NCBI RefSeq assembly: GCF_041261205.1
Contig: NZ_JBGCCH010000005.1
Span: forward strand, 62,001 to 126,000
DNA length: 64,000 bases
Direction of reading: 5' to 3'
From: Catenulispora sp. MAP5-51
GTDB taxonomy: Bacteria; Actinomycetota; Actinomycetes; Streptomycetales; Catenulisporaceae
Positions 15,367-64,000 of this stretch are shown one piece after another; within the stretch, counting starts at the first letter, position 1; every line of letters starts with the position of its first letter. A program made the translations under genes and the position numbers. The notes below the pieces were generated by a model, which did not search any database, was not told the origin of the DNA, and worked only from the letters and a program-made list of their open reading frames with translations.

Positions 15367-15642
15367 TTGACATCCCTTGATGAGATCGAGATCCCGCTCC
15401 CGTTCCAGGAGCTGCTGCGGCCCCACCTGCCCTACGCCGGGGCCGGCCCGCTGACCGCCGGCGAGGACCTGGCCGCGCTCGGCCTGGACTCGATGGCCGT
15501 GGTGCAGGTGCTGGCCGAAGTCGAGGCCGAGTTCGGGGTGGAGCTCCCCGACGAGATCCTGGACGAGGCCACGTTCGCCACCGTCGGCTCCCTGTGGGCG
15601 GCCGTCAGCGCGCTGGTCGGTAGCGGTGCTGACGCGGCTTGA
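15367..15642 (+). CDS. acyl carrier protein
   Basis: Free-standing carrier of 91 residues. The phosphopantetheine site is LGLDSMAVVQVL with Ser42, in the usual place before helix II, and FGVELPDEILDEATFATVGSLW is the helix II-III region. It starts at TTG after GAGGTGG. The 3' end overlaps the AMP-ligase gene by 17 bases, so the ligase probably loads this carrier. A carrier, an AMP ligase and a PLP decarboxylase also occur together in exosortase-A-type loci, from memory. Confidence 0.92.
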   Translation: MTSLDEIEIPLPFQELLRPHLPYAGAGPLTAGEDLAALGLDSMAVVQVLAEVEAEFGVELPDEILDEATFATVGSLWAAVSALVGSGADAA

Positions 15643-17236
15643 CGACCTGGTGCGCCGCGGGGCCCCCGAGCGCCCCGCCGTCACCTTCAAGGACGGCACC
15701 CTGACCTACGGCCGGCTGGCCGAGCAGGTCGGCGCGGCCGCCGCGGGCCTGCGGGCGCTCGGCCTGGAGCGCGGCGACCGGGTCCTGGTCTACCTGGAGA
15801 AGCGGCTGGAGACGGTGGTGGCGCTGTTCGCCGCCTCCGCCGCCGGGCTGGTCGTGGTGCCGGTCAACCCGCTGCTCAAGGCCGGGCAGGTCGCCTTCAT
15901 CGCCGCGGACTGTACCGCGCGGGCGGTCCTGACCAGCCCCGAGCGGCTGCAGACCGTCCGCGGGGACCTGCCCGAGTCCGTCGCGCACGTCGTCGTGGTC
16001 GGCACCCGGGCCGGGACCGACGACCACGCCGGCGCGGCCCCGGTGACCGCCTGGACCGAGCTGTGCCAGATGGCCGAGCCCGAGACGCAGAACCCTGTCA
16101 CGGTCGTCGACTCCGACATCGCCGCGATCCTCTACACCTCCGGCAGCACCGGAACGCCCAAGGGCGTCGTGCTCTCGCACCGCAACCTGCTCGCCGGCGC
16201 CGAGAGCGTGGCCGGCTACCTCGGCCACACCGCCGACGACGTGGTCCTGTCGGTCCTGCCGCTGAGCTTCGACGCGGGCCTGAGCCAGGTGACCACCGCG
16301 CTGCACGCCGGCGCGCACGTGGTCCTGGTCAACTTCCTGCTGGCCCGCGAAGTGCCCAAGCTGTGCGCCAGGCACCGCGTCACGGCACTGACCTGCGTGC
16401 CCCCGCTGTGGATGCAGCTCGCCGAGGCCGACTGGCCCGCCGAGTCCGCGGCCCATCTGCGTTACTTCGCCAACACCGGCGGCCATCTGCCGCGGCCCAC
16501 GCTCGACCGGCTGCGCGAGATCTTCCCCAAGGCCGACCCGTTCCTGATGTACGGGCTCACCGAGGCCTTCCGCTCCACCTACCTCGACCCGGCCGAGGTC
16601 GACCGGCGCCCCGACTCCATCGGCAAGGCGATCCCGAACGCCGAGGTGCTGGTGGTCCGGCCGGACGGCACGCCGTGCGAGGCCGGCGAGGAGGGCGAGA
16701 TCGTCCACCGCGGCGCGCTGGTGGCCCTGGGCTACTGGAACGACCCCGAGCGGACCGCCGAACGCTACCGGCCGCTGCCGCGCGCCGGCGGCGCGGCGCG
16801 TGCCGAGACCGCGGTCTGGTCCGGGGACCGCGCGGTGCGCGACGAGGAGGGGTTCCTCTACTTCCGCGGCCGTGCCGACGAGATGATCAAGACCTCCGGC
16901 TACCGGGTCAGCCCGACCGAGGTGGAGGAGGCGGCGCACGCCACTGGGCTGGTCGTCGAGGCGGCCGCCTTCGGGGTGCCGGACGAGGCGCTGGGCCAGC
17001 ACATCGTGCTCGTCGTGGCTCCCGTCCCGGACGCCGGCACCGGCCCCGGCCCCGCCCGCGCCGACGCTGCCTCGCTGCTGGCCGCGCTGCGCGGCCGGAT
17101 CCCGACCTACATGCTGCCGCGGCGGATCGAGTTCCTGGACCGGCTTCCGCGCTCCGCCAACGGCAAGTTCGACCGCCCCCTGATCCGGGAGCGGACATCG
17201 CAAGTGGAATCCGATGACGAGATGGGACTGACATGA
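15626..17236 (+). CDS. AMP-forming acyl-CoA/acyl-ACP ligase
   Basis: Adenylate-forming enzyme that activates a carboxylic acid and passes it to a thiol, here probably the overlapping carrier. The P-loop-like A3 motif LYTSGSTGTPKGVVLSH is intact, as are MYGLTEAFRSTY (A5), VWSGDRAVRDEEGFLYFRGRADEMIK (A7/A8) and the A10 lysine region NGKFDR. Length of 536 residues is normal. It resembles ligases annotated as exosortase-A-associated (from memory) more than NRPS A domains. No 10-residue specificity code can be read reliably here, so the substrate acid is unknown. The start GTG lies inside the ACP gene, and the 3' ATGA overlap couples it to the next gene. Confidence 0.9.
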   Translation: MLTRLDDLVRRGAPERPAVTFKDGTLTYGRLAEQVGAAAAGLRALGLERGDRVLVYLEKRLETVVALFAASAAGLVVVPVNPLLKAGQVAFIAADCTARAVLTSPERLQTVRGDLPESVAHVVVVGTRAGTDDHAGAAPVTAWTELCQMAEPETQNPVTVVDSDIAAILYTSGSTGTPKGVVLSHRNLLAGAESVAGYLGHTADDVVLSVLPLSFDAGLSQVTTALHAGAHVVLVNFLLAREVPKLCARHRVTALTCVPPLWMQLAEADWPAESAAHLRYFANTGGHLPRPTLDRLREIFPKADPFLMYGLTEAFRSTYLDPAEVDRRPDSIGKAIPNAEVLVVRPDGTPCEAGEEGEIVHRGALVALGYWNDPERTAERYRPLPRAGGAARAETAVWSGDRAVRDEEGFLYFRGRADEMIKTSGYRVSPTEVEEAAHATGLVVEAAAFGVPDEALGQHIVLVVAPVPDAGTGPGPARADAASLLAALRGRIPTYMLPRRIEFLDRLPRSANGKFDRPLIRERTSQVESDDEMGLT

Positions 17237-18111
17237 CTCTGGTGGGTGTCGTCGGCGCCGGCGTGATGGGCGTCGGGGTCGCGCAGAACCTGGCGCAGAC
17301 CGGGCACGACGTGATCCTCGTGGACAAGGACGAGGAGACGTTGCGCGAGGCTCTGACCCTGATCGAGCGCAACTGCCGCATGAGCCGGCTGATGGGCGGC
17401 CCGGAGGTGGACGCGGCCGAGGTGCTGGCCCGCATCACCACCGGGGTCGGCGCCAAGCAGGTGGCCGGCGCGGAGATCGTGATCGAGAACGTGACCGAGA
17501 ACTGGGACGTCAAGCGCGCGGTCCATGAGGAGATGGACGCTGCCTGCGGCCCGGAGACGGTGTTCGTGGTCAACACCTCCGCGATCCCGATCACCAAGAT
17601 GGCCTCGGTGACCGACCGCCCCGACCGCGTGGTCGGCGTGCACTTCATGAACCCGGTCCCGGCCAAGCCGGCGGTCGAGCTCATCCCGGGCTTCCACACC
17701 AGCCCCGAGACCGTGCGGCGCACCCGCGACCTGCTGACCGCCATGGGCAAGAAGGCCGTGCGGGTGAAGGACTCCTGCGGGTTCGTCTCCAACCGGGTGC
17801 TGATGCTCACCGTGAACGAGGCCGCCTACCTGGTGCACGAGGGCGTGGCCAGCGCCGCCGACGTGGACGAGGTGTTCCGCAGCTGCTTCGGCCACCCGAT
17901 GGGCCCGCTGGAGACCGCGGACCTGATCGGCGTGGACACCATCCTGTACAGCGTCGAGGTGCTGTACGAGCACTACGCGGACAGCAAGTACCGGCCCTGC
18001 CCGCTGCTGAAGCAGATGACCGACGCCGGGCTGCACGGCCGCAAGTCCGGCCGCGGCTTCCACGACTACGACCCCTCCGGCCGGCTGGTCGCCGCCGGTT
18101 CCGCGCGCTGA
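17233..18111 (+). CDS. 3-hydroxyacyl-ACP dehydrogenase, FkbK-type
   Basis: NAD(P)-dependent dehydrogenase of 292 residues. The N-terminal Rossmann motif is VVGAGVMGVGVAQNLAQTGHDVILVD. The catalytic region contains VGVHFMNPVP and the C-terminal domain ends in LHGRKSGRGFHDY. In the methoxymalonyl/hydroxymalonyl pathway, FkbK-type enzymes oxidise glyceryl-ACP to the aldehyde. The three following genes match the other pathway steps, which supports this role over a fatty-acid beta-oxidation one. It is coupled to the ligase gene by an ATGA overlap. Confidence 0.9.
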   Translation: MTLVGVVGAGVMGVGVAQNLAQTGHDVILVDKDEETLREALTLIERNCRMSRLMGGPEVDAAEVLARITTGVGAKQVAGAEIVIENVTENWDVKRAVHEEMDAACGPETVFVVNTSAIPITKMASVTDRPDRVVGVHFMNPVPAKPAVELIPGFHTSPETVRRTRDLLTAMGKKAVRVKDSCGFVSNRVLMLTVNEAAYLVHEGVASAADVDEVFRSCFGHPMGPLETADLIGVDTILYSVEVLYEHYADSKYRPCPLLKQMTDAGLHGRKSGRGFHDYDPSGRLVAAGSAR

Positions 18112-18162
18112 GAAACGACGCCAACGACGCCTACGAGGCCAACAACGCAAGGAGATAAGCGA

Positions 18163-18414
18163 ATGTCCGACTCGATCCAGGCCAAGAAGCAGATAGCCGA
18201 GTTCATCCACGGCCGTTTCCCGCAGGCTGAGATCAGCGATTCCGACGACATCTTCGCGCTCGGATTCGTCAATTCCCTGTTCGCCATGGAACTGGTGATG
18301 TTCATCGAGAAGACCTTCTCCATCACCGTCCCCAACGACGAGCTGAAGATCGACAGCTTCCGCACCGTCGAGCTGATGGCGGACCTGGTCGGCCGGCAGA
18401 AGGTCCTGGCATGA
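18163..18414 (+). CDS. acyl carrier protein, FkbJ-type
   Basis: Small carrier of 83 residues. The attachment motif is LGFVNSLFAMELV with Ser38, the form seen in carriers for hydroxymalonyl/methoxymalonyl units (Asn rather than Asp before Ser). AAGGAGA precedes the ATG. It carries glycerate-derived intermediates through the FkbH, FkbK and FkbI steps and then delivers the extender unit to a PKS acyltransferase. It shares an ATGA with the next gene. Confidence 0.93.
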   Translation: MSDSIQAKKQIAEFIHGRFPQAEISDSDDIFALGFVNSLFAMELVMFIEKTFSITVPNDELKIDSFRTVELMADLVGRQKVLA

Positions 18415-19559
18415 CCGTCGCCGATCTCGAGCGCTCCGCGCTCGGGACGCCCGACCGGAACTCGGCGCGGGCGTTCGTGGACAGGTGGATCGTGCCGTGT
18501 GCCAACGACTGGGACCGGGACGGCCGCATCCCCGAGGAGCTGCTGGAGCGCCTGGCCTCCGAAGGGCTGTGGGCGCCGTTCCTGCCCGCCGAGTTCGGCG
18601 GCGCGGGCCTGGACATGGTCACGCTCGGCGCGATCCACGAGGAGGTCGGCCGCGGCTGCTCCTCGGTGCGCAGCCTGCTGACCGTGCACACCATGGCCTC
18701 CTGGGCCGTGCACCGCTGGGGCAGCCCCGAGCAGCGTGAGCGCTGGCTGCCGCGGATGAGCCGCGGCGCCGTGCTCGGCGCGTTCTGCCTGTCCGAGCCC
18801 GGCGCCGGCAGCGACACCTCCGGCATCACCACCACCGCGGTCCCGCACGGCGGCGGCTGGCGGATCTCCGGGGTGAAGCGCTGGATCACCAACGGGCAGC
18901 GGGCCGACCTGCTGCTGGTGTTCGCCCGCGTCGGCACCGGCATCGCGGCGTTCCTGGTGCCGCACGACACCCCCGGCGTCAGCGTGCTGCCGATCGACGG
19001 CATGCTCGGCACCCGGGCCTCGATGATCGCCGAGATCTCCTTCCAGGACGTCGAACTCGGCCCGGACGCCCTGCTCGGGCCCAGCGGCTTCACCGCCGGC
19101 ATGGTGCTCACCGGCACCCTGGACCTGGGCCGCTACAGCGTGGCGACCGGCTCGGTGGGCATCATCCAGGCCTGTGTCGACGCCTGCGCCGGCTACGCCG
19201 CCCAGCGCAAGGTCAACGGCGCGCCGCTCAGCGAGCTGCCGCAGATCCGCGCCAAGCTCTCCGACATGGTCACCGACGCCCGCGCGGCGCGGCTGCTGTG
19301 CGAGGAGGCCGGGCGCCTGAAGGACGCCGGCGAACCCTCGACCATCATGGCCACCTGGATCGCGAAGTACTTCGCCTCCACCGCCGCGGCCCGCCACGCC
19401 ACCCAGGCGGTGCAGGTCCACGGCGCCAACGGCTGCAGCCCCGACTACCCGGTCGAGCGCTTCTACCGCGACGCCAAGGTCATGGAGATCATCGAGGGCT
19501 CCACCGAGGTCCAGCAGCTCACCATCGCCGGCGAGGCATTCCGAGGAGGCCTGTCGTGA
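18411..19559 (+). CDS. acyl-ACP dehydrogenase, FkbI-type
   Basis: FAD enzyme of the acyl-CoA dehydrogenase family, 382 residues. It has FCLSEPGAGSDTSGITTTA (FAD/substrate loop), GVKRWITNGQRADLLLVFAR, and the C-terminal AVQVHGANGCSPDYPVERFYRDAKVMEIIEGSTEVQQ. In the pathway, FkbI-type enzymes oxidise the aldehyde-level intermediate on the carrier to hydroxymalonyl-ACP rather than making a double bond. The flanking carrier and FkbH-type genes support that role. Confidence 0.92.
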   Translation: MTVADLERSALGTPDRNSARAFVDRWIVPCANDWDRDGRIPEELLERLASEGLWAPFLPAEFGGAGLDMVTLGAIHEEVGRGCSSVRSLLTVHTMASWAVHRWGSPEQRERWLPRMSRGAVLGAFCLSEPGAGSDTSGITTTAVPHGGGWRISGVKRWITNGQRADLLLVFARVGTGIAAFLVPHDTPGVSVLPIDGMLGTRASMIAEISFQDVELGPDALLGPSGFTAGMVLTGTLDLGRYSVATGSVGIIQACVDACAGYAAQRKVNGAPLSELPQIRAKLSDMVTDARAARLLCEEAGRLKDAGEPSTIMATWIAKYFASTAAARHATQAVQVHGANGCSPDYPVERFYRDAKVMEIIEGSTEVQQLTIAGEAFRGGLS

Positions 19560-20725
19560 GCACCACCGCCGACGGCGTTGCGACGGCCGGCGCTTCGAGC
19601 GCGGACAGCATCGAGGCGCAGACCGCGCAGGCGATGACCAAGCCGAAGCAGGGCCGGATCAAGTGCGTGGTCTGGGACCTGGACAACACCCTGTGGGACG
19701 GCATCCTGCTGGAGGACGAGAACGTCGTCCTGCGCTCGGACGTCGTCGCGCAGATCCACCGGCTCGACGGCCTCGGCGTCCTGCACTCGGTCGCCAGCCG
19801 CAACGACCCGGAGACCGCGCTGGCCAAGCTGAAGGCGTTCGGGCTGCAGGACATGTTCCTGCACCCGCAGATCGGCTGGGGCGCCAAGTCCGAGTCGGTC
19901 GCGTACATCGCCAAGGCCCTGAACCTGGGCCTGGACGCCTTCGCCTTCGTCGACGACCAGGAGTTCGAGCTCGCCGAGGTCGCGCACGCGCACCCCGACG
20001 TGCTCTGCGTGGACGTCGCCGACCTGGGTGAGCAGCTGGCCCGGCCGGAGTTCCACCCGCGCTTCGTCACCGACGAGTCGGCCCAGCGCCGCCTGATGTA
20101 CCTGGCGCAGGCCACCCGCGACGACATCGAGCGCGACTTCAGCGGCACGAACGACCAGTTCCTGGCGAGCCTGGACATGACCTTCGTCATCGCCCCGGCC
20201 CGCACCGAGGACCTGCAGCGCGCCGAGGAACTGACGATCCGCACCAACCAGCTGAACTCCACCGGCCGCACCTACTCCTACGACGAGCTCGACGAGCTGC
20301 GCGAGTCCAAGAACCACCTGCTGCTCGTGGCCTCGCTGGAGGACAAGTTCGGCACCTACGGCAAGGTCGGCCTGACCCTGGTGGAGAAGGGCGACGACGG
20401 CGTCTGGAAACTCCTGATGCTGCTCATGTCCTGCCGGGTGATGTCCCGCGGCGTCGGCTCGGTGCTGCTGAACCACGTCATGGGGCTGGCGAACCAGGCC
20501 GGCGCGGAGCTGCACGCCGACTTCGTCGAGACCGGCCGGAACCGGATGATGCAGATCACCTACGCCTTCGCCGGCTTCACGGAGATCGCCCGGGTGGGCA
20601 AGCTCGCCACCCTGAAGGCCGACATGGCGCGGCTTCAGCCGCCGGCTCCGTACGTGAAGCTGGTGACCGTGGACGAGGACGGGACCGAGCACGTGACCGG
20701 CCCCGGCGCGGCGGGCCAGGCATGA
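19556..20725 (+). CDS. FkbH-type glyceryl transferase/phosphatase
   Basis: HAD-superfamily protein of 389 residues that takes the glyceryl group of 1,3-bisphosphoglycerate, removes phosphate and loads it on the carrier. The HAD motif VVWDLDNTLWDG has Asp41 and Asp43. Later motifs include VASRNDPETAL and FVDDQEFELAEV. The C-terminal half carries the ELTIRTNQLNSTGRTYS segment and MSCRVMSRGVG, typical of the FkbH-like family. GTG 19556 follows GAGGAGG and overlaps the previous stop. The first 26 residues are variable, so ATG 19634 is an alternative start. Confidence 0.93.
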   Translation: MSTTADGVATAGASSADSIEAQTAQAMTKPKQGRIKCVVWDLDNTLWDGILLEDENVVLRSDVVAQIHRLDGLGVLHSVASRNDPETALAKLKAFGLQDMFLHPQIGWGAKSESVAYIAKALNLGLDAFAFVDDQEFELAEVAHAHPDVLCVDVADLGEQLARPEFHPRFVTDESAQRRLMYLAQATRDDIERDFSGTNDQFLASLDMTFVIAPARTEDLQRAEELTIRTNQLNSTGRTYSYDELDELRESKNHLLLVASLEDKFGTYGKVGLTLVEKGDDGVWKLLMLLMSCRVMSRGVGSVLLNHVMGLANQAGAELHADFVETGRNRMMQITYAFAGFTEIARVGKLATLKADMARLQPPAPYVKLVTVDEDGTEHVTGPGAAGQA

Positions 20726-21486
20726 GTACAGACCCGGGCATGAGCACCGAACGCTGGCTGCCGTTCCCGCGCCCGCCGGGCGAGGTCCGGTTGTACTGCG
20801 TCCCGCACGCCGGCGGCGGCGCGTCGTCCTTCCGGCCCTGGATCGGTGCCATGCCCGGCGTCGCGGTCTGCCCGCTGCAACCCCCGGCGCGCGAGGCCCG
20901 GTTCCGGGACGAGCCGATCCGCGCCATGGAACAGATGGCGTCCGAGATCGCGGACGTGGTGCAGGACAGTGCCGACGGACCGTATGCGGTCTACGGCCAC
21001 AGTCTCGGCGCCCTGACCGCCTTCGAGACCGTCCGCGAGCTCCGACGCCGGGATTCACGGACACCGATGCCGGTGCACCTGTTCGTCTCCGGCTGCCCGG
21101 CGCCGCAGATCCGGGACAGCCTGCTGCCGAACGTCCACGACGCCTCCGACGAGGAGGTCGTGGCGCTGCTGCGGCGCCTCGGCGGAACGCCGGAAAGCCT
21201 GCTGGGCGACCCGGGCCTGCTCGGGCTGATCCTGCCGGCGGTCCGGGCGGACCTGGAGGTGAAGGAGACCTACCGCTACACCCCCGAAGCGCCGCTGGAC
21301 CTGCCGCTGACCGTGCTGGACGCCGACGACGACCCGCGCGCCGGCACCGCCGGCACGGCGGCCTGGCGCGAGCAGGCGGCCGCGGAGTTCGCCCTGCACA
21401 CCGTGGGCCAGGGCCACTTCGCAGTGTTCGAACAAGCCCAGATCACCCACAAGTACCTGCTGGAGGCCCTGACCCCGTGGCTGTGA
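20722..21486 (+). CDS. type II thioesterase
   Basis: Stand-alone editing thioesterase (alpha/beta hydrolase) that frees PKS carriers from stalled or wrong acyl groups. It has the family start RLYCVPHAGGGASSF, the nucleophile elbow GHSLG (Ser94), VLDADDDP near the acid, and the catalytic His in GQGHFAVF. Length of 254 residues is typical. It overlaps the FkbH-type gene by ATGA and the next gene by 10 bases. An ATG at 20740 is an alternative start. Confidence 0.94.
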   Translation: MSTDPGMSTERWLPFPRPPGEVRLYCVPHAGGGASSFRPWIGAMPGVAVCPLQPPAREARFRDEPIRAMEQMASEIADVVQDSADGPYAVYGHSLGALTAFETVRELRRRDSRTPMPVHLFVSGCPAPQIRDSLLPNVHDASDEEVVALLRRLGGTPESLLGDPGLLGLILPAVRADLEVKETYRYTPEAPLDLPLTVLDADDDPRAGTAGTAAWREQAAAEFALHTVGQGHFAVFEQAQITHKYLLEALTPWL

Positions 21487-22220
21487 CCGCGGTCCGGGTC
21501 TGGCGCGCCGCGCTGGACCAGGACGGGGATCCGCACCGGTGGCTCAGCCACGAGGAACGAGCGCGCGCCGCCCGATACGCGAGCCCTGACGAAGGGCGCC
21601 GGTTCGCGGTGGCGCGCGCTGTTCTGCGTTCGGTGCTGGGGGAGGCCTGCGGCCTGGCCCCGGACGAGGTCGTCATCGGGACCGAGGACGGAGGGCGGCC
21701 GATCATCGAACTCTGCGACGGTCGCCTGCCATCAGACTTCCCGCCGCCGGACTTCCCGCCGCCGGACTTGATGCCGCCGGACTTCAACGTGTCCCATTCC
21801 GGGCGCTGGGCGTTGATCGCCGTGGCGCCGCCGGGGAAGCGCGTCGGCGTGGACCTTGAGTGGGACGGCCGGGAGGTGGACTGCCTGGCCATGGCGCGGA
21901 CGCTGTTCCAGCCGGCCGAGGCCGAGGCCCTGGCGCGGTTGGAGGGCGTGTGGCGGCGGCGGGAGTTCTTCCGGCTGTGGACGGCCAAAGAGGCCTACGT
22001 CAAAGCCGACGGCGCCGGTGTCGCCGGGCTGCGCGCCGTCCTGGTGGACGGCGCGACAGCGCGGTCGTCGGCGCCGTCGGCGGGCTTCCCTGCTGAGCTG
22101 CCCGTCCGCTGGTTCTCCGCCGCACCCGGTTATCCGGCCGCGCTCGTGGTGTCGGGCGGGGCCGAGGGCCCAGCGGCGCCGGCAGAGTTCGAGCTCTGTG
22201 ACCGGTTCCTCGACAGCTGA
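21477..22220 (+). CDS. Sfp-type 4'-phosphopantetheinyl transferase
   Basis: Moves phosphopantetheine from CoA to the conserved Ser of carrier domains, activating this cluster's ACPs. Signature motifs are FNVSHSG, VGVDLEWDGREVD (Mg-binding D-x-E) and FFRLWTAKEAYVKADG. An unusual Pro/Asp/Phe repeat (PPDF-type, four near copies) is inserted before FNVSHSG. The GTG start lies inside the thioesterase gene. The last 91 bases overlap, tail to tail, the condensation-domain gene on the other strand. Confidence 0.93.
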   Translation: MAVTAVRVWRAALDQDGDPHRWLSHEERARAARYASPDEGRRFAVARAVLRSVLGEACGLAPDEVVIGTEDGGRPIIELCDGRLPSDFPPPDFPPPDLMPPDFNVSHSGRWALIAVAPPGKRVGVDLEWDGREVDCLAMARTLFQPAEAEALARLEGVWRRREFFRLWTAKEAYVKADGAGVAGLRAVLVDGATARSSAPSAGFPAELPVRWFSAAPGYPAALVVSGGAEGPAAPAEFELCDRFLDS

Positions 22221-23854
22221 TTCGCCAGCACCCGCAACGGCGTCCCGCCGGCCAGATCGTGCAGCGTCAGGCCGCCGTAGCCGCGCTCGCGGAGCAGGTC
22301 CAGCACGCGCGGCAGCCGCAGTACCCGGCCGCCGTTCGGCACATAGGCCGAGTCCAGGTCGAGCATGTCGGCGCAGATGTCCATCGCCCGGCCGATGGCG
22401 CCGCGCAGCTCCAGGAGGGTCTCCGCGCCCGCCGGCTCCGTTCCCGCCAGCTCTGCTCCCGCCGTTCCCGCGACGCCTCCCGCCGCGCGGTCCCGCGAGG
22501 GCTCCGCGGGCTCGTCGAAGCCGGCCAGGGCCCTGATATCGCTGATGCGCAGATCCGCGTCCGGCTCGGCCAGGGCAAGCAGCACCGCCTCATAGCCGCG
22601 CAGGAAGCGCTCGACGGTCTCGGCGTCCATCACGGCGCCGGCGGCCTGCAGGTTCACCGAGACCGCGTCGCGCAGTTCGGTGATCCGCAGATACACGTCC
22701 GAGCCGAACGCGGCCCACGCGGTCGGCGCCGCGTTCCGCACGAAGGTCGTGCGCCGGACGCCCGCGGTGTGCGCGGCGTGGCCCAGGAAGTTGAGTTCCG
22801 AGCCGATCCGCAGGTCCCGGCCGCGGATGGCGCCGGCGCAGGCCAGGATCTCCAGCATCTCGTCGTAGCCCAGCGCGGTGTGGTCGCGGACCGCCTCGGT
22901 CTGCTCGGCGACCCGGCCCAGCAGTTCGGAGAACGACGGGTCGTCCCGGCCGTCCACGATCATCAGCAGCGGCGAGAAGCGGCACGTCAGCACATCGCTG
23001 TAGGCGTCCTCGCCGCGGTTGCCGTGGAAGTTCCAGTGCGGGACCAGGCCGTCGCCGGTGTAGGCCGCGGCCAACGCCGTGAACACCGCGACGTGGACCA
23101 GCGAGGGCCACAGCCCGGCCCGGTCCGCCAGCTGCCGACTGGCGGCCAGAGCCGCGGGGGAGGTCAGGGTGGCGGCGTTCGGGTCGGCCGGGCCGCCGCG
23201 GCGCCGGGCGAACAGATCGGAGCTCAGGCGCGCCGCCTGCTCGCGCCAGAACTCCGAGGCCTGCTCGTGCCGGTCCCGGAACTCGGTCTGGCTCTCGTGG
23301 CCGACCAGGTGCAGCGGCTGGTAGCGCACCGGTTCCAGACTGGCCGGCCGGCGGGTGGCCAGCGCGGTGCCGAGAACCTCCAGCTCCCGCTCGAAGCGGT
23401 CCACGCTCCAGGCGTCGAAAGCCATGTGGTTCATGACGACCACCAGCTGGCGCGGCGTGCCGCCGTCGGTGATCACACAGGCCCGCAGCGGCCAGTCGGC
23501 GGCCAGGTCGAACGGCGCCGTGGACAGCTCCTGGACCACGGCGGCCGGCGGCGGGGTGCCGTCCTGCTCGGCCGTGGCCTGGACCAGCTTCACCGGCCCG
23601 GCCGGGTGCACCCGCTGCCACGGATCGCTGTCCGCGTCGTGGTGGTAGGTGGTCCGCAGCGCCTCGTGCCGGCGCACCAGGTGGCCCAGCGCCGTCCGGA
23701 TCTGCGGCACCGACAACCCCGGCGGCAGCGGGAAGCGGGTGACGATGTGCGCGTCGTGGCGCGCCTCGGCGGGCAGCTGGTGGTGCCGCAGCCAGATGTA
23801 GCGCTGGCCCAGTCCCAAAGCGCCGGTCTTCGTGTCCTGAGCCGTCCCCGTCAC
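22130..23854 (-). CDS. stand-alone condensation-domain protein with degenerate carrier tail
   Basis: Protein of 574 residues with one condensation (C) superfamily fold: YIWLRHHQ start motif, LVRRHEALRTTY, then NHMAFDAWS. The last corresponds to the HHxxxDG catalytic motif, with His143 and Asp147 kept, but Asn for the first His and Ala for Gly. Later come HGNRGEDAYSDVLTCRFSP and the ELNFLGH region. After about residue 460 comes a linker, and then a carrier-like segment ending YVPNGGRVLRLPRVLDLLRERGY...LHDLAGGTPLRVLA. This aligns with a PCP but has Val where the pantetheine Ser should be. No A domain is present. It could form an ester or amide bond on a carrier-bound chain. GTG 23854 is chosen because homology begins there. 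Confidence 0.85.
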   Translation of the reverse strand: MTGTAQDTKTGALGLGQRYIWLRHHQLPAEARHDAHIVTRFPLPPGLSVPQIRTALGHLVRRHEALRTTYHHDADSDPWQRVHPAGPVKLVQATAEQDGTPPPAAVVQELSTAPFDLAADWPLRACVITDGGTPRQLVVVMNHMAFDAWSVDRFERELEVLGTALATRRPASLEPVRYQPLHLVGHESQTEFRDRHEQASEFWREQAARLSSDLFARRRGGPADPNAATLTSPAALAASRQLADRAGLWPSLVHVAVFTALAAAYTGDGLVPHWNFHGNRGEDAYSDVLTCRFSPLLMIVDGRDDPSFSELLGRVAEQTEAVRDHTALGYDEMLEILACAGAIRGRDLRIGSELNFLGHAAHTAGVRRTTFVRNAAPTAWAAFGSDVYLRITELRDAVSVNLQAAGAVMDAETVERFLRGYEAVLLALAEPDADLRISDIRALAGFDEPAEPSRDRAAGGVAGTAGAELAGTEPAGAETLLELRGAIGRAMDICADMLDLDSAYVPNGGRVLRLPRVLDLLRERGYGGLTLHDLAGGTPLRVLANQLSRNRSQSSNSAGAAGPSAPPDTTSAAG

Positions 23855-23965
23855 CGGCCGGCCCCGTATCGCTCGTGCATGGTAAGACGATCCCCGCCCG
23901 CCCGGCCTGGGACAACGGCCCGGCGGTGTCAGCTTCCTGACGCCGTTACCGGCCATCCGCGCGCA

Positions 23966-23994
23966 TTGACCGCGAGCTTCGCGGTTCGGACAGT
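23966..23994 (+). promoter_or_regulatory. promoter with central dyad for the decarboxylase gene
   Basis: TTGACC (23966-23971), a 17-base spacer, then GACAGT (23989-23994), seven bases before ATG 24002. A perfect seven-pair dyad, ACCGCGA-gct-TCGCGGT (23969-23985), fills the spacer, a classic position for a repressor or activator site. This also argues for a leaderless start at 24002. Confidence 0.55.
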
Positions 23995-24001
23995 GGGCGG
24001 T

Positions 24002-25228
24002 ATGACCTTGACCGAAGACCTCGCCGCCCGGTTCGGCCGGCACGAGGGCGAGCTGGCCGTCGGCGGCGTCCCGGTGCGGCGGCTGGCCGCCCGCGTCGGG
24101 GCGACGCCGTTCTTCGCCTACGACCGTGCCCTGCTCACCGAGCGGGTCGCCGCGGTCCGGCGCGCGCTGCCGGACGGCATCCACCTGAGCTACGCCGTGA
24201 AGGCCAACCCGATGCCGGCGCTGCTGCACCACATGAGCACCCTGGTCGACGGCTTCGACGTGGCCTCGGGCCTGGAACTGCGCGCCGCCCTCGACACCCC
24301 GGTGGGCCCGGCCAAGGTGAGCTTCGCCGGCCCCGGCAAGACCGCGGACGAGCTGAGCCAGGCCGTGGCCGCCGGGGTGACCGTCGAACTGGAGTCAGAG
24401 CTCGAACTCGCCCGGGTCCGCGCCGCGGCCGCCGAGACCGGCGTCACGGCCCGGGTCGCGGTCCGGGTGAACCCCGACTTCGCCGTGCGCGGCTCCGGCA
24501 TGCGCCTGGGCGGCGGCCCGCAGCAGTTCGGCGTGGACGCCGAGCGCGTCCCGGACCTGCTGGGCCTCATGGGCGACGGGGACCTGGAGTTCCAGGGCTT
24601 CCACATCTTCGCCGGCTCGCAGAACCTGCGCGCCGAGGAGATCTGCGGGGCGCAGCGCCGCACCATCGACCTGGTCCTCGCCCTCGCCGAGCACGCGCCC
24701 TCGCCGGTCCGCTACGTCAACGTCGGCGGCGGCTTCGGCATCCCCTACACCGCACGGGACTCCGCACTGGACCTGGCGCCGATCGGGGAGAACCTGGCGA
24801 AGCTGACCGACGTGGTGGCCGCCGGCCTGCCCGGCGCCCGGATCGCGGTCGAGTTGGGCCGCTACCTGGTCGGCGAGGCCGGCGTGTACGTCACGCGGGT
24901 ACTGGACCGCAAGGCGTCGCGCGGCAAGGTGTTCCTGGTCGTGGACGGCGGCATGCACCACCAACTGGCGGCCTCGGGCAACTTCGGGCAGACGATCCGC
25001 CGCAACTACCCGCTGGCGGTGGCGAACCGCATCGACGACCCGGCCGCGGCCAAGGTCTCGGTGGTCGGGTGCCTGTGCACCCCGCTGGACCTGCTCGGCG
25101 ACGACATCGAGCTGCCGGACGCGGACGTCGGCGACCTGATCGTGCTTTTCCAAGCCGGGGCCTACGGTCTGACGGCCAGTCCGACCGCCTTCCTCAGCCA
25201 CCCGGCACCGGTCGAGGTGCTTGTCTGA
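24002..25228 (+). CDS. PLP-dependent decarboxylase (diaminopimelate/ornithine decarboxylase fold)
   Basis: Fold-type III PLP enzyme of 408 residues. Lys67 in YAVKANP binds PLP. HIFAGSQ, the phosphate-binding GGGFGIPY, ELGRYLVGEAG and the active-site GCLCTPLD (Cys359) are all present, and it ends with the usual G-A-Y...ASPTAFLSHP segment. It resembles the decarboxylase subfamily annotated as exosortase-A-associated (from memory), which pairs with an AMP ligase and a carrier as here. Lysine biosynthesis is unlikely given the context. It probably decarboxylates a D- or L-amino acid or an aminoacyl precursor used by the ligase or the condensation proteins; the substrate is not known. Confidence 0.88.
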   Translation: MTLTEDLAARFGRHEGELAVGGVPVRRLAARVGATPFFAYDRALLTERVAAVRRALPDGIHLSYAVKANPMPALLHHMSTLVDGFDVASGLELRAALDTPVGPAKVSFAGPGKTADELSQAVAAGVTVELESELELARVRAAAAETGVTARVAVRVNPDFAVRGSGMRLGGGPQQFGVDAERVPDLLGLMGDGDLEFQGFHIFAGSQNLRAEEICGAQRRTIDLVLALAEHAPSPVRYVNVGGGFGIPYTARDSALDLAPIGENLAKLTDVVAAGLPGARIAVELGRYLVGEAGVYVTRVLDRKASRGKVFLVVDGGMHHQLAASGNFGQTIRRNYPLAVANRIDDPAAAKVSVVGCLCTPLDLLGDDIELPDADVGDLIVLFQAGAYGLTASPTAFLSHPAPVEVLV

Positions 25229-25688: not shown

Positions 25689-27131
25689 CTAATCACCAGG
25701 GAACAGCGCCGGATCGGGCTCAGCGGGCGTCCACAGCTCCTTGAGCCCGCTCTCCGGCGCCGCCACCGCACGCTGAACGCCGAACGCGACCGTGCGCAGC
25801 ATCCCGGCCAGCGCCTCGGCGTCCACGACGTCCGGATCGGTGCGCAGCTGGACGCTGGTCCGGCCGTCCTGAGCCGTGACCCGCACGTCGAACGGCTGCC
25901 CGTACTTCCGCGGCTTCTCCGTCCAGACGAGTTCGGCCGGGGCGTGCTCAGCCGGATCGGCGACCCGGTCGTCGAACGGCAGGTAGTTGAACCATGCCGG
26001 GAACAGGCGGTTGTACCAGCCGTCGGCAGATCCCTCGGTCTGCGCGGCGATCCGGTCCACGTCGTAGCAGGAGTACCGGTAGGCCTTCGCGCCGGCCCAG
26101 TGCGTTCGCTTCACGTGCTCGGCCAGCGTTCCGGCGCGGTCCACCGGCAGGGCGATCGGGATGAGCTGGTTCAGCGTGCCGACCACGTGGCGGTGGTCCG
26201 GTGCGAAGCGGTTGTTCGACATCAGGCTGATGACCGTGCCCTCGGTGCCGAGGTGTTCCGCGAGGGCCGTGGTGACCATCGCGAGCAGCACGGCCGGCAC
26301 CGTGACCGCATGCTGGCGCGCGGCCTCGGCGGCCAAGGCCGTCAGCCGGTGGGAGTGCAGGACGGCCTGCACACGCGGCTTGGTCTGGCCGGTGCCCAGC
26401 GTCGGCAGGGCCTGGCGGAAGCCGGCCGGCGCCTCGGCGAGCACGCCGCGCCAGTACTTCTCCGCGGACGCCTGCCTTGTCTGCCACTTCTCAGCATGCT
26501 GAGCCGCCGATAGATCCCGCTGCGAGGCCCCGGCGTCGAGATCGGCCCCGGGGTCCTCGGCCAAGATCCGGAAGCGGCGCTCCAGCTCGATCATCGACCA
26601 GACGTCCAGGATCAGGTGCGAGAACGCCAGCGAGACGAACATCGGTGCGCCGTCGGTGGTCACCAGCGAGCCGCGCCAGCAGGGGCCGCCGGTCATCGGG
26701 ATCGCTTGCGCCGCCAGGGCCTCGGTGGTGCGGATCGGGTCGGCGAAGTCGGTGATCTGCCGGTCGGCGGTCTCGATCGCGCGCGGCAGCCCGGTGGCGG
26801 GATCCAAGCCGCAGAGGCCACCGCCATCGCCGCCGCCACCGCCGCCGTCGTGGACGTCACCGCCACCATCGCCGCCGCCGACGTCCTCCACCGGATGCAC
26901 GTGCTGCGCCGGGACGCCGTCGCCGTCGATCGAGTAGCTGGTGCGCAACGGCTCGTGCAGCTCGATCAGCCGGCGCAGCGCCGCCGCCAGCCGCTCGGGG
27001 GTCAGGCCTCGCAGGTCCCAGGTCGCCGACAGGTTCGCCTCGGCCCGCCACGGCGGCGGGTAGGACTCCACCTCGCGCCAGCTGTAGAGCTGGCCGTGGC
27101 TGAGCGGCGTGGGCGCGACGGTGTTCGGCAT
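25689..27131 (-). CDS. second stand-alone condensation-domain protein
   Basis: Protein of 480 residues of the condensation superfamily, with LSHGQLYSWREVE, LIELHEPLRTSYS, and the catalytic-site equivalent SHLILDVWS (His172, Asp176; Ser for the first His and Val for Gly). The second lobe has VLLAMVTTALAEHLG and SLMSNNR, then FNYLPF. It ends after the domain, with no carrier tail. A Gly/Asp-rich run (about residues 85-106) interrupts the first lobe. It is divergent from PKS gene A by 223 bases. ATG 27140 is an alternative start. Its substrates are unknown; together with the first C protein it may join or release a carrier-bound chain. Confidence 0.82.
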   Translation of the reverse strand: MPNTVAPTPLSHGQLYSWREVESYPPPWRAEANLSATWDLRGLTPERLAAALRRLIELHEPLRTSYSIDGDGVPAQHVHPVEDVGGGDGGGDVHDGGGGGGDGGGLCGLDPATGLPRAIETADRQITDFADPIRTTEALAAQAIPMTGGPCWRGSLVTTDGAPMFVSLAFSHLILDVWSMIELERRFRILAEDPGADLDAGASQRDLSAAQHAEKWQTRQASAEKYWRGVLAEAPAGFRQALPTLGTGQTKPRVQAVLHSHRLTALAAEAARQHAVTVPAVLLAMVTTALAEHLGTEGTVISLMSNNRFAPDHRHVVGTLNQLIPIALPVDRAGTLAEHVKRTHWAGAKAYRYSCYDVDRIAAQTEGSADGWYNRLFPAWFNYLPFDDRVADPAEHAPAELVWTEKPRKYGQPFDVRVTAQDGRTSVQLRTDPDVVDAEALAGMLRTVAFGVQRAVAAPESGLKELWTPAEPDPALFPGD

Positions 27132-27354
27132 AGGGCCCATTGCCCCAAGGCCGGACGACGATCGCAAGGTGATGACGATGGCACAATGCGGCGGCCGTTA
27201 GTTGCCATCGCCGCGGGGCCGGTATTCGTTGACTGCGAACCCCTCGCCAATTGATCCTCGTTCTCGGAACTCCCGGACCGGCGATTGTGCCGCGGCCATT
27301 CCTCGGCCTTTTCGGGAGGGCGAATCGCGATTCCTCCCCCAAGGTGGCGTGGGC

Positions 27355-35937
<8,583 letters not shown>

Positions 35938-35953: not shown

Positions 35954-41371
<5,418 letters not shown>

Positions 41372-41403: not shown

Positions 41404-44400
41404 ATGGCCACAGAGGAAGAGCTCCGCAACTACCTGAAGCGGGTCACGCGCGACCTCACCGACACCCGTCGGCGGCTCGCGGAGACCGAGCAGCAGCTGT
41501 CCGACACCGAGCGCGCGCGGCACGAGCCGATCGCGATCATCGGTATGGGCTGCCGCTACCCCGGCGGGGTCGCCGGTCCCGAGGACCTGTGGGACGTGGT
41601 GTCCACCGGCCGGCACGCGATCGGCGAGTTCCCGGCCGACCGGGGCTGGGACGTCGAAGGGCTCTACGATCCCGACCGCGACGCCTTCGGCAAGTCCTAC
41701 ACCCGCAACGGCGGCTTCCTGTACGACGCCGCCGACTTCGACGCCGGCCTGTTCGGCATGAGCCCCGGCGCCGCGCTGACCAGCGACCCGCAGCAGCGGC
41801 TGATGCTCGAGACGGTGTGGGAGGCCTGCGAGCGGGCCGGCATCGACCCGATGGCGCTGCGGGGTTCGCGCACCGGTGTGTTCGCCGGGGTCATGTTCGA
41901 CTTCTACTGCACCCGCTTCCTCGGCGCGGTGCCGCAGGAGGTCGAAGCGTCACTGTTCACCTCCGCGCTGCCCAGCGTGCTGGCCGGCCGCATCTCCTAC
42001 ACCCTCGGCCTGCACGGCCCCGCCATCAGCCTGGACACCGCCTGCTCCTCCTCGCTGGTCGCCGTCCACCTGGCCGCGCAGGCGCTGCGCAACCGCGAGT
42101 GCTCGATGGCGCTGGCCGGCGGCGCCACCGTGATGGCCACGCCGGACTCCTTCGTCGAGTTCAGCCGCCAGGGCGCGCTGGCCCCCGACGGCCGCTGCAA
42201 GCCGTTCGCCGAGGGCGCCACGGGCGCTGCGTGGGCCGAGGGTGTCGGTGTCCTGATCCTGGAGCGGCTGTCCGACGCCGAGCGCAACGGCCACACCGTC
42301 CTGGCCGTCATCCGCGGCTCGGCGGTCAACCAGGACGGCCGCAGCAACGGCCTGACCGCTCCGAGCGGCCCGGCCCAGGAACGGCTGATCTGGGAGGCGC
42401 TGGCCGACGCCCGCCTGGACGCCCGCGACGTCGACGTCGTCGAGGCGCACGGCACCGGCACCCCGCTCGGCGACCCGATCGAGGCCCGGGCCCTGCTGGC
42501 CACCTACGGCCAGAACCGCGGCGAGGGCGAGCCGCTGCTGCTCGGCTCGGCCAAGGCCAACTTCGGCCACACCCAGGCCGCCGCGGGCGTCGCCGGCATC
42601 ATCAAGATGGTCATGGCGATGCGGCACAACGAGCTGCCGCCCTCGCTGTTCGCCGAGAACCCCTCCTCGCAGATCGACTGGGACAGCGGCGCGGTGCGGC
42701 TGCTGGACGCGGCCCGGCCCTGGCCGGCCGTGGACCGGCCGGTGCGCGCGGCGGTGTCCGGCTTCGGGATCAGCGGCACCAACGCACACGTCATCATCGA
42801 GCAGGCCCCGCAGCCGGGTGACGCCGAACCGGCCGAGGCGGACGCCGGAATCGAGACAGCGGCCGCCGCTGCGACTGCCATCACTGAAAACCAGAGCCCG
42901 CATGTCTGGGTCCTGTCAGCCCGCACCGAGAAGTCCCTGCGCGCCCAAGCCGGCCGCCTCGAGGTCTTCTCCCGCGCCGCCGACGCCGCCGACCTGGCCG
43001 CCGCCGGCCCGGCCCTGGCCCGCCGCACCACCCTGGAACACCGCGCCGTCGTGGTCGCCGCCGATCGCGAGGAACTGACCTCCGCCCTCACCGCCCTCGC
43101 CGACGGTACCCCGCACCCGGCGCTCGCCGTCGGCACGGCGGCCGCCGACGTCCGCCCGGTCTTCACCTTCCCCGGCCAGGGCTCGCAGTGGGCCGGCATG
43201 GCCGTGGAGCTGATGGCCGCGAACCCGGTCTTCGAGGACTGGATGACGCGCTGCGACACCGCGCTGGCCCCGCACACCGGCTGGTCGGTGGTGGACGTGC
43301 TGCGCGGCGCCGAGGGCGCCCCCACGCTGGACGGCACCGAAGTCATCCAGCCCGCGCTGTTCGCCGTGATGGTCTCGCTGGCCGGGCTGTGGCGCTCGAT
43401 CGGCGTCGAGCCGGCCGCCGTCATCGGCCACTCGCAGGGCGAGATCGCGGCCGCCGCCGTCTCCGGCGCGCTGTCGCTGGAGGACGCGGCGCGGGTCGTC
43501 GCGCTGCGCAGCCGTTCGCTGCTGCGGCTCAGCGGGACCGGCGGGATGCTCGCCGTCGCGCTGCCCCCGGAGGAGATCGTCAAGCGTCTGGAGCCGTTCG
43601 ACGGCCGCCTGTGGCTGGCCGTGTACGCGGGCCCGGCCAGCGGCGTGGTCGCCGGCGACCCGGACGCGCTGGACGAGTTCGTCGAGTCCTGCGGCGAGAA
43701 CATCCGCACCCGCCGCGTCGGCGTGGACTACGCCTCGCACACCCCGCACGTCGAGGCCCTGCACGACGAACTCCTGACGGTGCTCGCCGGAACCGCGCCG
43801 GTGTCCACGGACATCGCGATGTGCTCCTCGCTGCACGCCGAGTTCATCGACACCGCGCGCCTGGACGCCGCGTACTGGTACGAGAACCTGAGCAACCCGG
43901 TCCGCTTCCGCGACGCCGTCGCGGCCTTCAAGGACTTCGGGACGCCGCTGTTCGTCGAGGCCAGCCCGCATCCGGTCCTCGTCGGCGACATCGCCGACAT
44001 CCTGGAGGACGCCGGCGCGGCCGGCGCGGCGACCGGTTCGCTGCGCCGCGACGAAGGCGGCTGGCAGCGCTTCCTGCTCGCCGCCGCCGGGGCCTACGTG
44101 CTCGGCGCGCCGGTGGCGTGGACCGATCTGCTGGGGCCGGTGCGGCGTCGGGTCGAGCTTCCGACGTACGCCTTCGACCGTCAGCGGTACTGGATCGAGA
44201 GCACGGAGCGGGCCGCGTCCGGCGCCGGCATGAGCGTCTCCGCGCACCCGCTGTTCTCCTCGGTGGTCTCCCTGGCCGACGGCGGTCTGCTGCTGACCGG
44301 TCGGCTTTCGCGCACCGCGGCGCCGTGGCTGAACGACCACGTGGTCGAGGGCGCGGCGCTGTTCCCGGGCGCCGGATTCGTCGAGCTCGCCCTGGAAGCG

Positions 44401-51702: not shown

Positions 51703-51706
<4 letters not shown>
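46970..51706 (+). CDS. modular PKS gene D: module 4 (KS-AT-KR-ACP)
   Basis: Type I PKS of 1578 residues. It keeps the N-terminal docking coil ([20 protein letters not shown]) and a canonical KS (TACSSS, Cys208). From the AT on it changes lineage: FLLPGTGDQYAGLG, GYSLGEY (Ser695) instead of GHSxG, an insert near LLGRATDAEAEDPD, and HAFHS (794-798). The KR has GGTRGLG (1204), no LDD (HAAGLPAGG; possibly A-type) and Tyr1349. The ACP has LGGNS (Ser1511), also of the myxobacterial/cyanobacterial form. No DH is present, so a beta-hydroxyl is kept. The tail is a short basic segment with no docking helices, and ATGA couples it to gene E. GTG start. Confidence 0.93.

Positions 51707-64000
<12,294 letters not shown>

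Follow-up and report, generated by a model that had tools for sequence, protein, structure and literature searches.

A polyketide synthase (PKS) gene cluster of Catenulispora sp. MAP5-51 contains a trio of genes that belongs together and is foreign to the assembly line: a stand-alone acyl carrier protein (ACP1), an AMP-forming ligase (LIG) and a decarboxylase dependent on pyridoxal phosphate (PLP), here DEC. The cluster lies on a stretch of 64,000 nucleotides (contig NZ_JBGCCH010000005.1, positions 62,001 to 126,000), which is called the window below and in whose numbering positions are given. Genes of this type are associated with exosortases, and in the window the trio has been taken over by an antibiotic-type cluster family, where it probably loads and decarboxylates an acidic amino acid to make an amine-bearing building block. 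The favoured account, held with moderate confidence, is that the three proteins and a condensation-domain protein (CdomA) form a split, trans-acting module of the nonribosomal peptide synthetase (NRPS) kind with a built-in decarboxylation, and not a second starter pathway. The account thereby predicts that the product of the orphan PKS cluster family, which occurs in four actinobacterial families, contains an amine-derived unit. The analysis also brings out an unusual condensing enzyme that is fused to a conserved carrier lacking its serine.

From gene content, family membership, co-occurrence and the single clade in each tree, we infer a substrate, an order of steps and a condensation bond as follows. 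LIG would adenylate an acidic alpha-amino acid and use the side-chain carboxyl to attach it to the phosphopantetheine of ACP1, DEC would strip the alpha-carboxylate from the carrier-bound amino acid to leave an omega-amino acyl thioester, and CdomA would join the amine-bearing unit to the polyketide. Side-chain loading fits both enzymes, because a PLP decarboxylase needs a free alpha-carboxylate. CdomA would most likely take the chain off the PKS by forming an amide with the amine; Pfam scans of the PKS proteins, together with a reading of the translation alone for the final 1.6 kb of the three-module protein, gave no sign of a thioesterase domain. Glutamate, which would give gamma-aminobutyryl (GABA)-ACP, has about an even chance of being the substrate, and aspartate, which would give beta-alanyl-ACP, a distinctly smaller one. 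The preference for glutamate is weak and derives from the roomy pocket of LIG and the likeness of DEC to BtrK.

Ligase and decarboxylase of the cassette

The first-pass annotation, made from the sequence alone, had placed a separate carrier and an overlapping AMP-forming ligase at the start of the operon, and had likened these two and a nearby decarboxylase to side genes of exosortase-A loci. Exosortase-A is a bacterial protein-sorting, slime-making system, and a ligase, a decarboxylase and a carrier are its unexplained neighbours. Profile searches bear the likeness out: LIG scores 709 bits with TIGR03098 (ligase_PEP_1; curated cut-off 592) and DEC 587 bits with TIGR03099 (dCO2ase_PEP1; curated cut-off 478), both families being labelled ‘hypothetical equivalog, exosortase A system-associated’. 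No other protein of the genome passes the TIGR03098 cut-off; the runner-up of 114 matches reaches 311 bits. The exosortase family PF09721 has no match in this genome (G000), as had been supposed; this rules out an exosortase link there and membership of an exosortase A system.

The opening of the operon is also as described, with ACP1 and LIG overlapping by 17 nt; the identical overlap recurs in L023, from another genome of the genus, and a GAGATGAGG-like ribosome site precedes the TTG start of ACP1. ACP1 is an extra carrier, because the hydroxymalonyl-ACP set downstream owns a separate one. The decarboxylase is indeed nearby, but lies 6.8 kb downstream of LIG, between two minus-strand condensation-domain genes; in many relatives it adjoins LIG. 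It had been regarded as a side gene, a view replaced here by one in which decarboxylation is the next step on the carrier.

The best solved match of DEC is BtrK (242 bits), and the first diaminopimelate decarboxylase follows at 158. The motif LCTPxD is present in 103/103 decarboxylase rows, BtrK included; DEC has CTPLD, resembling CTPED of BtrK, whereas the three lysA copies over the cut-off elsewhere in the genome read CESGD or CEAGD. A housekeeping role in lysine synthesis was ruled out, since DEC scores 240 bits against a lysA cut-off of 297.9 that three other genes pass; a BtrK-like decarboxylase, rather than LysA, is what these comparisons describe. BtrK is the L-glutamyl-[BtrI ACP] decarboxylase; it converts BtrI-S-glutamate to BtrI-S-GABA (excerpts of PMC7857480).

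For the pocket region of LIG, the best solved match is VinN (3wv4, 126.7 bits), the next other proteins scoring 109 and 107; 3wv4, 3wv5 and 3wvn are VinN structures (PMC11253843, in excerpt). The same source, a review of adenylation domains, characterises VinN in the excerpts as follows: D230 deals with the amine, a loop that is shortened by one residue relative to alpha-amino-acid enzymes carries K330 and R331, and facing this loop are F231 and S299, which are bulkier (PMC11253843). LIG has counterparts of D230, of R331 and of the short loop. Its pocket residues include D216, T284 and R316, of which D216 aligns with VinN D230 and R316 with R331 (PDB residues 246, 315 and 347 were matched to D230, S299 and R331 by an assumed offset of 16 residues), and its beta13-beta14 loop has the short length of VinN's, the alignment being ungapped. 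The equivalents of D216 and R316 are invariant in 88/88 aligned ligases. Only one of the two bulkier residues has a match of that kind: Thr284, at position 299, is bulkier, and Ala217, at position 231, is not, so that the pair is incomplete. Phe replaces K330. With smaller side chains than VinN at 5/10 pocket positions (F231 to Ala included) and a larger one at a single position, the pocket is, as far as residues can be read from an alignment, VinN-like but roomier opposite the loop: Asp, Arg, the short loop and Thr are kept, while Ala stands at F231 and Phe at K330.

Ten pocket positions, set by motif in GrsA numbering, have the residues D A S C A N T M R S in LIG. The D, M and R at 235, 322 and 330 are identical in 88/88 ligases of PKS and non-PKS types. 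For this alignment, 13/100 loci were dropped because they had no complete stop-free ligase (L032, L051, L060, L064, L065, L076, L079, L083, L086, L091, L102, L118 and L128), and certain strains appear under two locus identifiers. The cassette had been proposed to activate an amino acid or a short acid; the Asp at 235 in all ligases aligned and the BtrK-type decarboxylase support the amino acid.

Loading module and condensation proteins

The PKS was said to have its own KSQ loading module, and the translation agrees, the first ketosynthase (KS) reading LDAGQSSSL against DTACSSAL in the second. This argues against a starter role for the cassette. A pathway in which it supplies an amino-acyl starter unit to the PKS, as VinN/VinL/VinO do in vicenistatin-type macrolactams, is improbable: the LIG pocket resembles that of VinN and DEC would, by its BtrK homology, carry out a VinO-type step, but the PKS opens with KSQ-AT-ACP, and of the expected partners (PMC11284099, in excerpt) a second adenylation enzyme, a dipeptidyl transferase and an amidohydrolase were not found among the cluster open reading frames (ORFs) scanned. 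The exception among relatives is a second AMP-ligase-like gene in two Streptantibioticus-type clusters and beside the cassette of genome G009.

The unit had been imagined as being attached to the polyketide by two condensation proteins. CdomA is likely the condensing partner of the cassette, judged by co-occurrence: whole-genome searches found it in 8/8 PKS-type genomes and in 0/19 genomes bearing a non-PKS cassette, the latter search having no positive control of its own. CdomB is a weaker candidate, the gene caller placing it in 4/10 compared regions. In six of the eight genomes CdomA had not been seen earlier beside the cassette, the remaining two being the window's genome and L093; its apparent absence from Labedaea, Amycolatopsis rifamycinica, G009 and G004 in the neighbourhood view was overturned when the whole genomes were searched. 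Outside the window's genome the matches are 42-48% identical, apart from one short piece at 53%. In 10/10 aligned proteins the motif reads NHxxxD, which keeps the Asp and the second His of HHxxxD. At the C-terminus CdomA carries a carrier-like tail whose serine is replaced, with GGRVLR or GGRALR in 10/10 aligned sequences. AlphaFold2 models this tail with a mean pLDDT of 92, and the top 50 Foldseek hits of the model in the PDB are nearly all carrier proteins with probability of at least 0.95, no E-value being below 0.03; the tail possibly serves in docking.

The genes for the phosphopantetheinyl transferase and CdomA overlap tail to tail on opposite strands by 91 nt (22130-22220), and the same arrangement occurs in L022, L023 and L026 (73-88 nt). 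Within about 20 kb of the G009 cassette, L032 (G009:C8:68000-87999) holds a CdomA homologue, a second, distant decarboxylase (37%) and an adenylation-domain protein.

The aminoacyl-ACP could instead be the donor, with CdomA (or CdomB) esterifying a polyketide hydroxyl with a GABA or beta-alanine side chain. Stand-alone condensation domains can form esters, as in enacyloxin, whereas a free primary amine on the donor would be unusual at the donor site of such a domain. The presence of two condensation proteins and the hydroxyl-rich chain predicted for the Herbidospora member of the family (excerpts of PMC4599437) favour esterification; the lack of a protecting enzyme among the cluster ORFs scanned counts against it. 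Taken together, this donor role is doubtful, though it deserves some weight.

Distribution and origin of the cassette

The cassette is sparse. The TIGR03099 cut-off is exceeded in 6/10 genomes of the genus, in 8/391 of the order (the six included) and in 15/394 of the class (the window's own included). The first-pass annotation had regarded as damaging to its proposal the discovery of the trio as a housekeeping set in genomes without PKS genes. The trio does occur outside PKS clusters, in 67/80 named loci, the other 13 being PKS-type by tblastn with the window proteins (L063-L068, L070, L071, L079, L083, L086, L089 and L093; the set comprises the best 80 loci among the matches listed), but with so sparse an occurrence in order and class it is not housekeeping. 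L063 duplicates L022 and was left out of the ligase and carrier counts, leaving 12 PKS-type loci. On the same strand and no more than 300 nt from the decarboxylase, a ligase is present in 8/12 of these and in 62/67 of the other listed loci; the other four PKS-type loci have none within the fetched flank, and the genomes of L064 and L083 carry one on another contig. By profile search, a carrier lies within 5 kb of the decarboxylase in 7/12 PKS-type and 48/67 other loci. An earlier impression that the 67 lack carriers was an artefact of a strict LGxDS-like pattern, the motif of the non-PKS carriers being mostly LPELDS.

Exosortases accompany the cassette in part of its range. Among 36 cassette-bearing genomes, PF09721 exceeds its cut-off in eight, and these are exactly the eight Proteobacteria from outside the Rhizobiales; the 26 Actinobacteria and two Rhizobiales have no match over it (four of these 28 have sub-threshold matches). 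A carrier stands near the cassette in 4/8 of the exosortase-bearing Proteobacteria (L107, L127, L137 and L138). In the non-PKS loci L049, L052, L056 and L058, the only ones to which the term polysaccharide locus is applied here, the partly annotated genes include glycosyltransferases, a Wzx-type flippase, an O-antigen polymerase and a sugar transferase, with sulfate-activation genes in addition in L052. The cassette of L052, like that of L053, adjoins genes for PAPS-reductase-like, EF-Tu-like GTPase and inositol-phosphatase-like proteins and a sugar transferase, a neighbourhood that suggests a sulfated polysaccharide; the L053 decarboxylase is identical to that of Jiangella anatolica (L090).

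That the window genes are non-functional or moonlighting leftovers of such a polysaccharide locus is hardly credible. The nearest relatives outside the PKS clade do sit in non-PKS loci, polysaccharide ones where annotated, but the cassette has been retained in the PKS family across four actinobacterial families, its active-site motifs are intact, and the cluster ORFs scanned, which extend from ACP1 to the AT-less KS protein, include no glycosyltransferase.

Within the PKS family, ten regions were compared. The PKS and the first acyl-CoA dehydrogenase are present in all ten, the ligase and the hydroxymalonyl-type dehydrogenase in nine each, FkbH in six, and the decarboxylase in nine by gene caller, the tenth (Herbidospora) being recovered by tblastn. 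The region without ligase and dehydrogenase is that of A. rifamycinica, which is split over contigs; the ligase and CdomA are neighbours on another contig there. Ligase and decarboxylase stay together, with the hydroxymalonyl set elsewhere in the cluster, in Saccharothrix, Labedaea, Nonomuraea, Herbidospora and two Streptantibioticus-type clusters; the cassette is thus a unit of its own.

This gene order bears on the possibility that LIG, ACP1 and the dehydrogenases form an extender pathway to aminomalonyl-ACP or to a second oxidised malonyl-ACP, with DEC unrelated. The aminomalonyl pathway of the zwittermicin kind would be the model. In the window, ACP1 and LIG are directly upstream of the hydroxymalonyl-ACP set and overlap it, a second acyl-CoA dehydrogenase follows beyond the window's end at 68900-70060, and at position 236 LIG shares Ala with alpha-amino-acid enzymes. 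In the six clusters just named, however, the ligase is with or next to the decarboxylase, some 14-45 kb away from the hydroxymalonyl set, most of these sets are seen with their own ACP2, and LIG adjoins DEC in the 62/67 loci where PKS genes are lacking. An extender role is very unlikely on these grounds, and a ligase belonging to the hydroxymalonyl set was ruled out by the order in other genera.

Two quick maximum-likelihood trees, made without bootstrap, each place the PKS-type proteins on one side of a single branch: 21 rows among 103 decarboxylases (SH-aLRT 97) and 15 among 88 ligase rows (SH-aLRT 99). When the decarboxylase tree is rooted on BtrK, the other actinobacterial rows and those of Rhizobiales form the sister clade of the PKS clade (84), and the remaining proteobacterial rows fall outside both. 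The simplest reading of the trees would be that PKS biosynthesis acquired the cassette once and that the cluster spread afterwards. One decarboxylase row, L079 (Candidatus Melainabacteria), is of the actinobacterial PKS type and nests with Streptantibioticus and Catenulispora-type rows; it is probably a mis-binned contig.

Outside PKS clusters, the cassette would presumably make the same acyl-ACP for another acceptor. A broader picture, tentative and on present evidence rather unlikely as a whole, would have all TIGR03098/TIGR03099 enzymes as one portable machine that makes acyl-ACP with an omega-amino group (GABA or beta-alanine). Under this picture, the arm would be attached to a glycan or lipid in polysaccharide and exosortase loci and offer a primary amine there, which might conceivably be the nucleophile to which the exosortase joins PEP-CTERM proteins, and the PKS family would have captured the machine once, adding a condensing partner with a dead carrier domain. 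Because pockets are near-identical in PKS, non-PKS and exosortase-bearing genomes, a single in vitro test of the soluble proteins of this cluster could reveal the chemistry of the whole group.

Several observations weigh against the split module. Over its full length LIG scores higher with LgrA, a gramicidin synthetase (256 bits), than with VinN (199), and it lacks F231 of VinN, having Ala there as in GrsA; taken alone, its pocket may be compatible with an ordinary alpha-binding mode. Mutagenesis showed that F231 matters for 3-MeAsp and Asp binding (excerpts of PMC11253843). CdomA has Asn at the first His of HHxxxDG, with the catalytic His and Asp kept; its match in A. rifamycinica holds one in-frame TGA; and its distance from the ligase is 17-58 kb in G009, G767 and Labedaea, while G004 has it on another contig. 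Ligase and decarboxylase are themselves apart in the window (6.8 kb), in G009 and G004 (a few kb) and in G023 (~39 kb), and are on different contigs in A. rifamycinica and G767. A GNAT protein and an AsnB-type amidotransferase nearby could likewise handle an amine or acid. The trees count on this side for their quick construction and for roots on very long branches (BtrK, VinN), the program having warned of long branches meeting. The open-licence literature yielded no biochemical datum for any TIGR03098/TIGR03099 protein.

Gene layout and comparison with known systems

Downstream of ACP1 and LIG, which open the operon, come the hydroxymalonyl-ACP set, a type II thioesterase and a phosphopantetheinyl transferase (Table 1). 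The set occupies 17233-20725, with FkbH, an acyl-CoA dehydrogenase, a 3-hydroxyacyl-CoA dehydrogenase and an ACP. An ORF at 22259-25228 (+) is DEC overextended by 581 codons into the antisense of CdomA, and ATG 24002 is the likely start.

Table 1. Features of the window and their positions
Feature	Position	Strand	Remarks
ACP1, stand-alone cassette carrier	15367..15642	+	91 aa; TTG start; LGLDSM; PF00550 40 bits (cut-off 20.8)
LIG, AMP-forming aminoacyl-ACP ligase	15626..17236	+	536 aa; TIGR03098 709 bits; PF00501, PF13193
3-Hydroxyacyl-CoA dehydrogenase, FkbK-like, hydroxymalonyl-ACP set	17233..18111	+	
ACP2, carrier of hydroxymalonyl-ACP set	18163..18414	+	without significant similarity to ACP1
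Acyl-CoA dehydrogenase, FkbI-like	18411..19559	+	
FkbH-like protein	19556..20725	+	TIGR01686 267 bits (cut-off 147), scored on a longer ORF starting at 19298
Type II thioesterase	20722..21486	+	PF00975 150 bits
4'-Phosphopantetheinyl transferase	21477..22220	+	PF01648 52 bits
CdomA, stand-alone condensation-domain protein ending in a serine-less carrier domain	22130..23854	-	PF00668 88 bits; GTG start
Serine-less carrier domain of CdomA	about 22184-22429	-	C-terminal tail of CdomA
DEC, PLP (alanine-racemase fold) aminoacyl-ACP decarboxylase	24002..25228	+	TIGR03099 587 bits
CdomB, second condensation-domain protein	25689..27167	-	PF00668 92 bits; start uncertain
PKS, KSQ-AT-ACP loading module and module 1 (KS-AT-DH-KR-ACP)	27202..35937	+	
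Three single-module PKS proteins	35954-41371, 41404-46884, 46970-51706	+	
Three-module PKS protein	51703..64000, continuing to 65583	+	likely ATG 51703; carrier at C-terminus

After the end of the PKS at 65583, beyond the window, follow AsnB, a SnoaL-like protein, a GNAT protein, the second acyl-CoA dehydrogenase, an AT-less KS-KR-ACP protein and an ABC transporter. The AT-less protein (window coordinates 70089-73967; L009:7089-10967, -) has an altered ECHATGT motif and relatives in most of the compared clusters; its extender unit perhaps comes from hydroxymalonyl-ACP2. The AsnB-type amidotransferase (L009:2633-4462) exceeds the TIGR01536 cut-off, and among the ten regions the gene caller sees AsnB only in the window and Labedaea clusters. 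Identity with the exosortase amidotransferase TIGR03108 was ruled out (352 bits against a cut-off of 817). In the literature found, no Catenulispora product is linked to this cluster.

The hydroxymalonyl set corresponds to the fkbG-K methoxymalonyl/hydroxymalonyl pathway, of which the window has FkbH, both dehydrogenases and the ACP; it neighbours the cassette and is not part of it. A methyltransferase corresponding to the FkbG O-methyltransferase, needed for methoxymalonyl, was not found among the cluster ORFs scanned, and the gene after FkbH is the type II thioesterase. The orphan cluster pks-1 of Herbidospora belongs to the same family, the first two PKS genes of H. sakaeratensis encoding 2782 and 1793 aa, in agreement with the table in the excerpts of PMC4599437. 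Those excerpts place pks-1 in all five Herbidospora type strains, give it nine modules and liken its chain to polyenes; of pks-1 they describe only the PKS genes, with no mention of the cassette (PMC4599437).

Compared with the exosortase-associated systems, LIG has the same pocket Asp, Met and Arg as the exosortase-bearing Proteobacteria, but the window cluster has no exosortase, no glycosyltransferase among the cluster ORFs scanned, and a PKS clade of its own. A prior report that joins the exosortase-associated ligase or decarboxylase with polyketide clusters was not found in the open-licence literature, and the main text of the exosortase paper (PMC1569441) mentions neither enzyme.

The closest parallels are functional. 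In butirosin biosynthesis (BtrI/BtrJ/BtrK), as proposed for the window, a PLP enzyme decarboxylates a carrier-bound amino acid, and BtrK is the best solved match of DEC and shares CTPxD. BtrJ is an ATP-grasp carrier ligase, in contrast with the AMP-forming loading enzyme of the window (PF00501/PF13193), which is not of the ATP-grasp type and has a PKS context. Vicenistatin biosynthesis shares with the window an AMP-forming enzyme, a stand-alone ACP and a PLP decarboxylase in a type I PKS cluster, and a VinN-like pocket: VinN loads 3-methylaspartate on the stand-alone VinL, and VinO decarboxylates it there (excerpts of PMC11284099). The window differs in its KSQ loading, which replaces aminoacyl loading, and in its condensation-domain proteins; counterparts of VinM, VinK and VinJ were not found among the cluster ORFs scanned, which sets it apart from the VinN/VinL/VinO starter cassettes. 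By analogy with both systems, the cassette is best explained as one that works like BtrI-BtrJ-BtrK and VinL-VinN-VinO while being a member of neither.

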